Assembly (NCBI GenBank): GCA_030427255.1
Contig: JAUHWY010000008.1
Location: 1 to 64,000, forward strand
Direction: 5' to 3'
Length of the DNA stretch: 64,000 nt
DNA from: Bacteroidia bacterium
GTDB lineage: Bacteria; Bacteroidota; Bacteroidia; CAIKAF01
Of this stretch, positions 3,293 to 26,905 are shown one piece after another; the first letter of the stretch is position 1, and each line of letters begins with the position of its first letter. Both the position numbers and the translations under genes were made by a program. Under the pieces are notes generated by a model. That model was not told the DNA's origin and did no database searches. It worked only from the letters and a program-made list of their open reading frames with translations.

Positions 3293-6200
3293 CGGGGAGT
3301 TTTTCCGGGTTTTTTACTTTTTTTCCTGACAAATAAGCATACATAGCGGGTACTACATATAAGGTAAGTATTAGGCTGAACATAATGCCACCGATGATGG
3401 CCATGCCCAGGGGTTTTCTGGACTGTGCGCCGGCGCCTAAAGCCAGGGCAATGGGCAAAGCACCAAGAGCAGTGGCCAGGGAGGTCATGAGGATGGGCCT
3501 CAAACGCATGGTGGCGGCTTCAATAACGGCATCTATTTTTTCCATGTCTTTTTTAAGACGGAGTTGGTTGGCAAATTCAACAATTAAAATGCCGTTTTTG
3601 GTGACCAAGCCAATGAGCATAATAATTCCGATTTGCGAAAAGATGTTTATGGTGTAACCAAAAGCCCAGAGGCTGAACAAGGCACCGAACAGGGCTAAAG
3701 GTACGGTTAGCATAATGACCAAGGGGTCTTTAAAACTCTCGAACTGAATGGCCAAAACCAGATAAACCAAAACCAGGGCAAACAAGAAGGCGAAGAGGGT
3801 ATTGTCGGAGCTTTCTTGAAAGTCGCGGGATGCTCCGCTGAGTTCGGTGCTGAAGCTTTCGTCGAGTAGGCTGTCGGCAATGCTTTCCAGCACTTGGATT
3901 CCATCTTTGAGGGCATAACCGGGGGCTAAATCTGCTTCGATTTTGGCCGATTTGTAGCGGTTGTAGTGGTACAATTGGGGAGGGTTGGTCACCTCTTCCA
4001 TACGGATGAGTTGGTCCAAGGAAACCATTTCGCCGGTATTGTTGGGCACGAACACCTTTCGAACATCGTCCGGATTGTCGCGGTTGTTGAGGGCTACTTG
4101 ACCAATGACTTCGTACTGGCGGCCGTTAAGGGTGAAGTAGCCGAACCTACGTCCGGAAAAGGAAAGTTGTAAGGCTTCGTTGATGTCGGCCACCCGAACG
4201 CCCATGCTGGCCGCTTTGTCGCGGTCAATGCTGAGTTCCATTTCGGGCTTGTTGAACTTGAGCTCAGAATCCACACCCACCAAAACGCCACTGTTTTGGG
4301 CGGCTTCCATAAATTCCGGCAATACGGCCCTGAGCTTTTCGAAGGAGTTGTTTTGCAGCACAAACTGAATGGAACGTCCCAGTCTTTGGCCGGTAGAAAT
4401 GGTTTGTTCTTGCACCACAAAGGCTCTACCGCCGGTAAGGGTGCTGAAATCTTGAAAAAGGGCACCTGCGATTTCGTTTTGGCTGCGTTCCCTTTCGTTG
4501 GGTGGTACCAAACGCACGCGCATAAATCCTGTATTTGGAGCTCCGCTACCAAAAAAGCCGGGGGAGGTGACCGAAAGCACTACGGTATGCTCCGGCACAG
4601 AGTCCATGGCGACTTGGACCAATTCGTCCATATAGTCGTACATGTATTCGTAGCTGACACCTTCGGGAGCAGAAACGATGACCCGCAGGTTGGAACGGTC
4701 TTCGGAGGGGGCCAGTTCCTGCGGCAAGCTTTGGTAGAGCAGGGCGGTACCCAGTCCGGTGATGCCCAAAAGCGGGAAAACCAACCAGGATTTTTGCATG
4801 AAGCTGCGCAGGCTACCGCGGTAAAACCGGTCCATGGCTTCAAAGAAGGGGGCCGACCATTGGTAAAATTTAGAAGGAGCTTTAGGCGTTTTGGAGGTGA
4901 GCCAAACGTTGAGAATAGGGGTTAGGGTTAAGGATACAAAGGAAGAAATCAAGACGGCGGCGGCAATAACCACCCCAAATTCACGGAAAAGGCGGCCCAC
5001 AAAGCCTTGCAAAAAAATAATGGGCAAGAAAACAAAGGCCAGGGTTACCGAAGTGGCAATAACGGCAAAGTAAATTTCTTCGGCACCTTCTCGAGCGGCA
5101 CGGTAGCGGTTCATGCCCTGCTCCAGTTTTTTGTAGATGTTTTCGGTGACCACAATGCCGTCGTCTACCACCAAACCGGTGGCCAGTACAATGGCCAGTA
5201 GGGTAAGTACATTGATGGAAAAGCCCATCAAATACATGATAAAGAAGGTGCTAATGAGCGAAACCGGAATGTCAATAAGCGGCCGCAGGGCGATTTTCCA
5301 ATTTCTAAAGAACAGGTAAATGATAAGCACCACCAAAATAAAGGCAATGAGCAGCGTTTCTCCAACCTCTTCGATGGATTGGCGGATAAACACGGTGGAG
5401 TCTAGGGCAATGTCCAGTCGAATGTCATCGGGTACTTCCTTTTTAAGGCGGTCGTAGCGGCGGTAAAATTCATCGGCGATATCGATGTAATTGGAGCCGG
5501 GTAGGGGAACCATGGCCAGGGCAACCATAGGAACACCGGATTCTTTGAGGATGGTTTCGTCGCGTTCCGGTCCGAGTTCGGCGTGGCCGATATCTTCGAA
5601 ACGCACCAATTCGCCGTTTCTTTCGGCCACAATAAGGCGGTTAAAGGCTTCGGGGTCACTAAGTCGGCCTTGCGTTTTTAAGGTAAGTTCGGTTTGGATT
5701 CCGCTAACTTTTCCGGCGGGCAATTCAATGTTTTGGGCTTCGAGGGCGCGCAATACTTCTACCGGGCTAATTTGGTAGGCTCCCATGCGGATGGGGTCGA
5801 GCCAAAGCCTCATGGCATAGCGTTTTTCGCCCCAGATTTGGACCGAACTTACGCCGGGAATGGTTTGAATCCGTTCCAGCACCACATTGGTGGCATAGTC
5901 GTTGACCTCCAATTGCGTGCGGGTATCGCTTTGGATTTGCATGGAGATGATGGCGTCGGAGTTGGCATCGGCTTTACTTACTACGGGCGGCCCGTCGATA
6001 TCGTCAGGTAGGGAGCGCAAGGCTTGGCTTACTTTGTCTCGGACATCGTTGGCGGCTGCGTCCAGGTCTTCTCCTAAATCGAATTCTACGGTAATGCGGC
6101 TGCTACCTTGGTTGCTGGAAGAAGAAATGGTGCGAATGCCTGCAATACCGTTAATGGCTTTTTCTAAAGGCTCGGTGATTTGGCTTTCGATAATGTCGGG

Positions 6201-25963: not shown

Positions 25964-26051
25964 GTTCTTTGGGCCCCGGCATCTACAAAAATCCTTCTCC
26001 GTATGGGCTTCCACTGCAGCCTCACCCATGGCAAAGCACGGTCTGCCAACC

Positions 26052-26079
26052 GCCCTAGGGTGTTTTAACACCCCAGGGC
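26052..26079. repeat. 28-nt near-perfect hairpin
   Basis: GCCCT-A-GGGTGTT pairs with AACACCC-C-AGGGC with one A/C mismatch. There is no T run, so it is not a terminator. It lies in the non-coding gap from 25694 to 26905. Confidence 0.5.
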
Positions 26080-26231
26080 AGGGCATACCGGCCATGCCAA
26101 GGGCGGGGTCTTCCGTTCAAGCCCAGGGGCCATTCTATGGAGTTTTTGGTTCTTATTGCTTTGTTTCCAAAGAAGATGTAGGGCTTTCCCTTGTGGAAGA
26201 TAGGATGTCATTGAAAAGGCGAAACCCTAAG

Positions 26232-26374
26232 GAGACCGTTGACGCGTTGTGTTTTCAAGGCGAATTAAGGCACGGCCAAATTAAAAGCCCGAAGTTTACT
26301 GGCTGTAAATGAGGAGCTTGAGATTTGGCTGTAACGCAAAGTCGCCGCAAGAATAGCAACGCGTCAACGGTCTC
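26232..26374 (+). mobile_element. 143-bp fold-back miniature element, copy 1
   Basis: The ends GAGACCGTT and AACGGTCTC form a perfect terminal stem (26231-26249 with 26357-26375). The element is flanked exactly by the 5-bp direct repeat CTAAG (26227-26231 and 26375-26379), as expected of a target-site duplication. Copy 2 lies inverted at 26615-26757 with the same length and about 74% ungapped identity. The whole element folds as one long hairpin with inner stems at element positions 28-32/111-115, 41-50/92-101, 54-57/85-88 and 63-68/74-79. G-U pairs indicate the plus strand for this copy. No transposase is nearby, so it would move in trans. Confidence 0.85.
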
Positions 26375-26614
26375 CTAAGGTAAATGCAAACCAAAGGGAC
26401 ACGCACAAACCCTAAAAAGGCAAACAGCCCGACCACGATTTTCCAAAAAGAATAAGGTTTGAATGTAAAGCTTTGCTTTTAGAGGCATAGATTTCAGCCG
26501 GAACAATTTAGAGTAGATGCTCCGGCGCAGGGACCGAGCCGGTACCCCCCTTTTGGGCTCCGAATGAGGGCCTGCCGGAAGGAGCGACTAAAAGAAGCTC
26601 CCTTGCGGCAGAAA

Positions 26615-26757
26615 GAGACCGTTCATTTACACCTATTCTGGCGGCATCTTTGCGTTGTGGCCAAACCTCAAGCTCCTCATTTACAATTGGTAAACTGCGG
26701 ACTTTCGATTTGTCCACGCCTTTATCTGCCTTGAAAACGGCATAAATGAACGGTCTC
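26615..26757 (-). mobile_element. 143-bp fold-back miniature element, copy 2 (inverted)
   Basis: The same length as copy 1, read on the minus strand. The ends GAGACCGTT and AACGGTCTC match copy 1, but the next pairs differ in both arms together (CATTTA with TAAATG here, GACGCG with CGCGTC there). It is flanked exactly by the 5-bp direct repeat AGAAA (26610-26614 and 26758-26762). An 86-residue open frame crosses it but is interrupted by stops in copy 1, so coding is unlikely. About 240 bp of ordinary DNA separates the copies. Confidence 0.85.
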
Positions 26758-26905
26758 AGAAAGTTCAAAGGCCTCTATTGTTTTTTGAAAATTTCATTTG
26801 CCCGAATTCGGAGGCCAAAAGGGGAGTAAAGGGGAGGGCCCGGAAGCCCCGCCAATAGAGAATGCCTAATGTTGTATTGGAAGAAGCGGGGCTTGCGCCC
26901 CACCA

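Follow-up and report, generated by a model that had tools for sequence, protein, structure and literature searches.

The window analysed here is a stretch of 64,000 nucleotides (positions 1 to 64,000 of contig JAUHWY010000008.1) from a Bacteroidia bacterium, whose genome is referred to as G000. It carries two copies of a 143-bp repeat in opposite orientations (Table 1). The original prediction had placed two such copies at these positions, about 74% identical and each bounded by its own exact 5-bp duplication, and both points hold: the copies align without gaps at 106 of 143 identical positions (74.1%), and the differing duplications can be read directly from the DNA. The ends of the two copies are alike (GAGACCGTT / AACGGTCTC; in a shorter form, GAGACCGTTGACGCG). 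The plus strand of copy 1 folds with an energy of -77.8 kcal/mol (z = -10.0) and its minus strand with -62.6 kcal/mol (z = -9.1). The apical hairpin of the conserved core is GGAGTTTAC-like and reads CGAAGTTTACTGGCTGTAAATGAGGA in copy 1. Near copy 2, intergenic DNA at 26551-26614 and 26801-26905 of the window is 96-100% identical to that of the sister species G004, against 74-88% for the surrounding DNA. A further dispersed intergenic repeat lies at about 25997-26137, with 70-72% matches at G004:C1:700575-700724 and C12:224925-225077.

Table 1. Features of the two repeat copies in the window, and core matches in Staphylococcus aureus rRNA spacers
Feature	Coordinates	Strand	Remarks
Target-site duplication of copy 1, left (CTAAG)	26227..26231		read directly; the G004 empty site has a single CTAGG
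MITE copy 1, 143 bp, form without hairpins	26232..26374	+	167 bits with model R1; empty site
Copy 1 terminal inverted repeat / outer stem, 5' arm	26232..26250	+	pairs with 26356-26374
Copy 1 conserved core	26266..26340	+	AAGGC / AACGC internal loop and apical hairpin
Copy 1 terminal inverted repeat / outer stem, 3' arm	26356..26374	+	
Target-site duplication of copy 1, right (CTAAG)	26375..26379		read directly
Target-site duplication of copy 2, left (AGAAA)	26610..26614		read directly
MITE copy 2, 143 bp, inverted	26615..26757	-	154 bits with model R1
Target-site duplication of copy 2, right (AGAAA)	26758..26762		read directly
S. aureus paired cores, one spacer	L243:3054-3136, 3328-3410 (NZ_CP077935.1 99553-99635, 99827-99909)	sense	
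S. aureus third core, another spacer of the same record	L186:2477-2558	sense	

In order to be mobile, the element should occur in many copies with fixed ends and independent duplications, as the original prediction proposed to check. BLAST of this genome recovers 48 pieces that match the 143-bp element, and about 60 or more related copies are present. From 25 ungapped copies a covariance model (R1) was made, which yields 78 matches in G000 and 71 in G004, some of these being a second match to a copy on its opposite strand; searched against four other species of the genus (G001, G002, G003 and G005), it finds no copies. The 5-bp flanks match at four or five positions in 22 of the 37 usable copies, 9 of them perfectly, while in 5000 shuffles of the flanks the number of copies matching at that level averages 1.8 and never exceeds 7. 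The signal appears at k = 5 only, and boundaries shifted by 1-3 bases leave 0-3 copies. All 21 copies checked with a simple ORF caller are intergenic (11 between tandem genes, 10 between convergent genes and none between divergent genes). The family agrees with bacterial MITEs in its size (60-330 bp, within the 50-1000 bp range taken for MITEs, and without an ORF filling the element), in its terminal inverted repeats of 13-19 bp, and in being present many times over, with target-site duplications and empty sites.

The history of the two insertions can be read by comparison with G004, where the locus is present as 87% identical DNA without copy 1. An empty site of the kind anticipated for a mobile element is found there: G004 reads AAACG-CTAGG-GTAGG where G000 reads AAACC-CTAAG-[143]-CTAAG-GTAAA, and copy 1 is therefore younger than the split between G000 and G004. 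In G004 copy 2 occupies the corresponding position and has the same flank on its left, but hairpins have taken the place of its middle; because this insertion is common to both species and was remodelled in G004, it is older than the split. At two other G000 loci (L029 and L036, in C23 and C32) the flanks are common to both and the terminal stems are different yet complementary; these stems may have re-paired after insertion, or may have been changed by arm-to-arm copying.

The original prediction had left the family of the element open and had suggested looking for a transposase element with the same ends. Such an element exists in G004, and the family can now be given as IS5 (NCBIfam IS5_4). 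PF01609 genes number one in G004 and none in G000. The G004 gene lies within a 1302-bp stretch (L192:1302-2603) that begins with GAGACCGTTGACG and ends, inverted, with GAGACTGTTGACGCG. These ends match those of the MITE at 13/13 and 15/16 positions, the first 13 bases of the 5' arm of copy 1 being the same as those at the left end of the IS, and no other sequence is common to the two. Its transposase reaches 219 bits against NF033581 (transpos_IS5_4, cut-off 140) and 87 bits against PF01609, and the nearest named relative is of the ISCca7 type of Cardinium, at 44% identity. The MITE shares its ends with an element of the NF033581 group which, unlike the MITE, is autonomous and could move it. 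The sole G004 copy of this IS has TACTAG and AAAATG at its borders, with no visible target duplication.

The 1302-bp element is likely the mover of the MITE; judging from the matching ends, a transposase of the G004 type would act on the MITE copies. This DDE enzyme would recognise GAGACC(G)TTGACGCG ends and leave 5-bp target duplications. The duplications, the empty site and the IS with matching ends together support the originally proposed separate insertions of a non-autonomous, MITE-like element, and we consider it very probable that both repeats are MITEs moved in trans by an IS5-family transposase and carrying an RNA-like passenger core. A 245-bp end remnant of the same IS (the last 27 codons and one end) is kept in G000 at C30:3841-4079; since the parent has decayed to this fragment, the G000 copies are probably immobile now. 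The sister species retains one intact-looking parent IS. The two species make a good system for study: each has about 60 or more copies, insertions both old and new are present, and there is a single parent IS.

Copies of the MITE fall into length classes of 93, 143, 167-171, 192-197, 219-230 and 271-327 bp. The differences between classes are hairpins of 25-27 bp (type CCTGACGCTNCGGTCAGG) that occupy about four junctions (close to positions 28, 57, 84 and 107 in the 143-bp form), either singly or as tandem arrays in which up to 11 units of 27 bp follow one another; the exact hairpin pattern occurs 95 times. Such small hairpins would have been repeatedly gained or lost by the passenger at fixed junctions. 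In the 93-bp form of G000 and G004 one hairpin replaces the core, and copies of this form have perfect duplications (ATGTA, CTTAG). As these core-less copies moved, with 5-bp duplications, the ends suffice for movement. The possibility that the core is required for movement was rejected, given that core-deleted forms of 105 and 60 bp also moved. In elements from a Pseudomonas aeruginosa plasmid and from Halomonas (L189:1528-1640 and L190:1520-1617) extra hairpins are found within the core stem, and modular growth is therefore not confined to the genus of G000.

The core follows the pattern AAGGC...CGNAGUUUAC-N4-GUAAAUGAGSA...AACG. In alignment A1, double-sided changes are seen in 24 of 50 pairs (shuffled mean 9.7) and 96.6% of cells are paired (shuffled 89.6), and none of 500 shuffles reaches either value; these covariation counts carry the caveat that an alignment fitted by a covariance model favours the structure. 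Pairing in A1 falls to 34-43% when the partner is slid by 1-3 columns, and the internal loops of the core are nearly invariant. Rfam gives no match over the elements at either gathering or loose thresholds. The core, which is absent from Rfam, is a rod with strong covariation and unvarying internal loops, and together with the modular hairpins and the wide sharing of this structured core it goes beyond what the original prediction could see. Inside the ends, the passenger would fold into a rod in which the stems are compensated and two internal loops are conserved.

Relatives of the core were found in other Bacteroidota. Two genomes of one genus in the same family as G000 (G008 and G012) contain relatives of about 118 bp with the same loops and different stems, and a model made from them (R2) matches in 27 of 395 Bacteroidia genomes, representing 17 genera, mostly with several copies each. 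The ends and duplications of these core elements vary: GGGCATCTCTAAAAA ends with 4-bp duplications (TTAA, ATAA, CTAA, TAAT) in G154, GGGGAGTTCTAAAAATT ends with 4-bp duplications in G175, AAGACCGTTGCAAAAG ends with the 5-bp duplication GTTAT in G143, and GGGTACTTCTAAAAACT ends with the duplication TTAA in G041. A search of G154, G175 and G308 for a cognate IS with GGGCATCTCTAAAAA ends found none. A second, unrelated palindromic MITE of 142 bp (CGCCACAAAGGCACAAGGGCACTAAG...) occurs in G154 at L172:4128-4269 and also at L170, L171 and L173. Its ends and TTAA duplication are those of the core-bearing element, so that one transposase probably moves both.

Additionally, when plasmids were searched by BLAST with a consensus, matches appeared in Pseudomonas, Halomonas and Staphylococcus aureus. 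Inverted ends of their own are seen in the elements of the first two genera, those of Halomonas being GGAGCCTCTGATTAA with TTAA on both sides. A model of 16 cores from Bacteroidia and Gammaproteobacteria (R3), from which Staphylococcus was left out, gives three matches in one S. aureus record (67.8, 55.8 and 55.7 bits). All three lie in 16S-23S spacers, two of them in one spacer, and all have the rRNA sense; they are the only sequences found in which the core is surely transcribed. These spacer cores may be old insertions, or an independent RNA of the same architecture. Hits of a 20-bp pattern outside Bacteroidota (Lachnospiraceae, Methanomethylovorans, Geitlerinema and others) were judged by model R3 to be chance. 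No core was found in viral and phage collections or in E. coli genomes, and the core string did not turn up when the text of papers was searched.

The two strands of the element are not equivalent. In 27 diverse copies, departures from Watson-Crick pairing are G.T rather than A.C by 35 to 10, in 18 versus 3 columns, and a hand count of A1 gives about 39 to 12; the structures were predicted from the plus strand and the copies are related, and these figures are not a clean probability. The plus strand also has the better fold, with a margin of about 11 kcal/mol, in 25 of 26 copies from this genome and in all 18 taken from other genera. Because this polarity in wobble pairs and fold energy is what a plus-strand RNA would leave, unlike a duplex cruciform, the asymmetry suggests an RNA structure. 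Our best guess, which we hold to be on balance probable, is that the core functions as a structure at the transcript level, in processing, protection or insulation. In the plus orientation it would act as RNA that protects, processes or insulates the transcripts passing through the element.

The core and the palindromy could instead be ancestral baggage without RNA function, kept by a DNA cruciform constraint or by arm-to-arm gene conversion, an account that competes with the RNA part of our explanation and leaves the MITE part untouched. Core-deleted forms do multiply well (those of 105 and 60 bp in G154 and that of 93 bp in G000 and G004), and changes in the long terminal repeats are symmetric, as arm-to-arm copying would make them (L029). 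However, from genus to genus and from phylum to phylum the stems vary and the loops keep the same sequence, the strands are asymmetric, and two sense-oriented cores occupy one S. aureus rRNA spacer; we regard baggage as a possibility of some substance that we are inclined to doubt. A family of host structured ncRNA genes, immobile and spread by segmental duplication, would agree with the very strong fold and covariation, with the intergenic position of all 21 copies examined and with the few loci whose flanks are common outside the element (L029/L036 and L025/L028). It is nevertheless very improbable, and is refuted as the main explanation by the 5-bp duplications that most copies have of their own and by the existing empty site; moreover, the ends match an IS and core-less copies move too. 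REP-like repeats of the IS200/IS605-related (RAYT) system, likewise palindromic, intergenic and with small tandem hairpins, are scarcely credible here and are refuted by target duplications, as RAYT/IS200 elements make none, whereas these have 5-bp (elsewhere 4-bp) duplications and IS5 ends.

Returning to the RNA reading of the core, we tentatively raise the possibility, somewhat short of an even chance, that a single homologous RNA module is common to Bacteroidota, Gammaproteobacteria and the Staphylococcus rRNA spacer. It would have been captured repeatedly by IS5-type ends with differing sequences and duplication lengths, and would spread as a passenger useful to transcripts (processing, protection, readthrough). 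The middles of MITEs are usually deemed meaningless IS leftovers; here the middle is conserved while ends and duplication length vary by lineage, and RNA-type covariation is retained in the core throughout a class and, judged by model score, between phyla. Should the core prove to be a functional RNA module, it would be a mobile RNA element dispersed by transposase, and the acquisition of transcript-processing or readthrough signals by bacterial genomes would become testable.

Several known systems resemble this family in part. BOX of Streptococcus pneumoniae and ERIC of enterobacteria are intergenic fold-back repeats, built of modules or bearing inserts, which can persist as RNA structures in transcripts; they differ from the MITE described here in sequence, ends and movers. 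A further likeness is to MITE464/PgRS and BrickBuilt of Porphyromonas gingivalis, also a member of Bacteroidota, whose IS5-family ends are almost the same. The ends of ISPg1/ISPg4 (IS5 family) and of the MITEs BrickBuilt and MITE464 are GAGACCTTTGCA-like and GAGACTGTTGCA, with GAGACTGTTGCA/TGCAACGGTCTC in MITE464 and GAGACTGTTGCA in ISPg4 (PMC4596501). The P. gingivalis MITEs hold short tandem repeats of 23 or 41 bp and predicted long stem-loops, and are reported to have duplications of mixed length and repeats that lack matches outside the species (PMC4596501). Unlike these, as compared by published description, the present family has a 143-bp core form, hairpins of about 25-27 bp at about four fixed junctions, and uniform 5-bp duplications. 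MITEPsy1 of Pseudomonas syringae is a transposase-free, IS5-type MITE of 100 nt that was shown to transpose, with a 4-bp duplication at CTAG/YTAA (PMC3189936). Its duplication resembles those of the core-bearing elements of G154, G175 and Halomonas (TTAA, CTAA and others), and its ends, again by published description, differ from those of the present MITE. We conclude that this is a real IS5-type MITE family, and that its new features are its modular hairpins and the conservation of its core irrespective of the ends.

Two arrangements of the core were observed in other Bacteroidia. At contig ends of G294 (L160:131-639 and L161:95-334) core-bearing units are arranged head-to-tail in tandem with a spacing of about 120 bp. 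Among the 18 best Bacteroidia loci, four (L132, L125, L143 and L134) lie about 170 bp or less from a tRNA gene, and the element at L132 is flanked by tRNAs on both sides.
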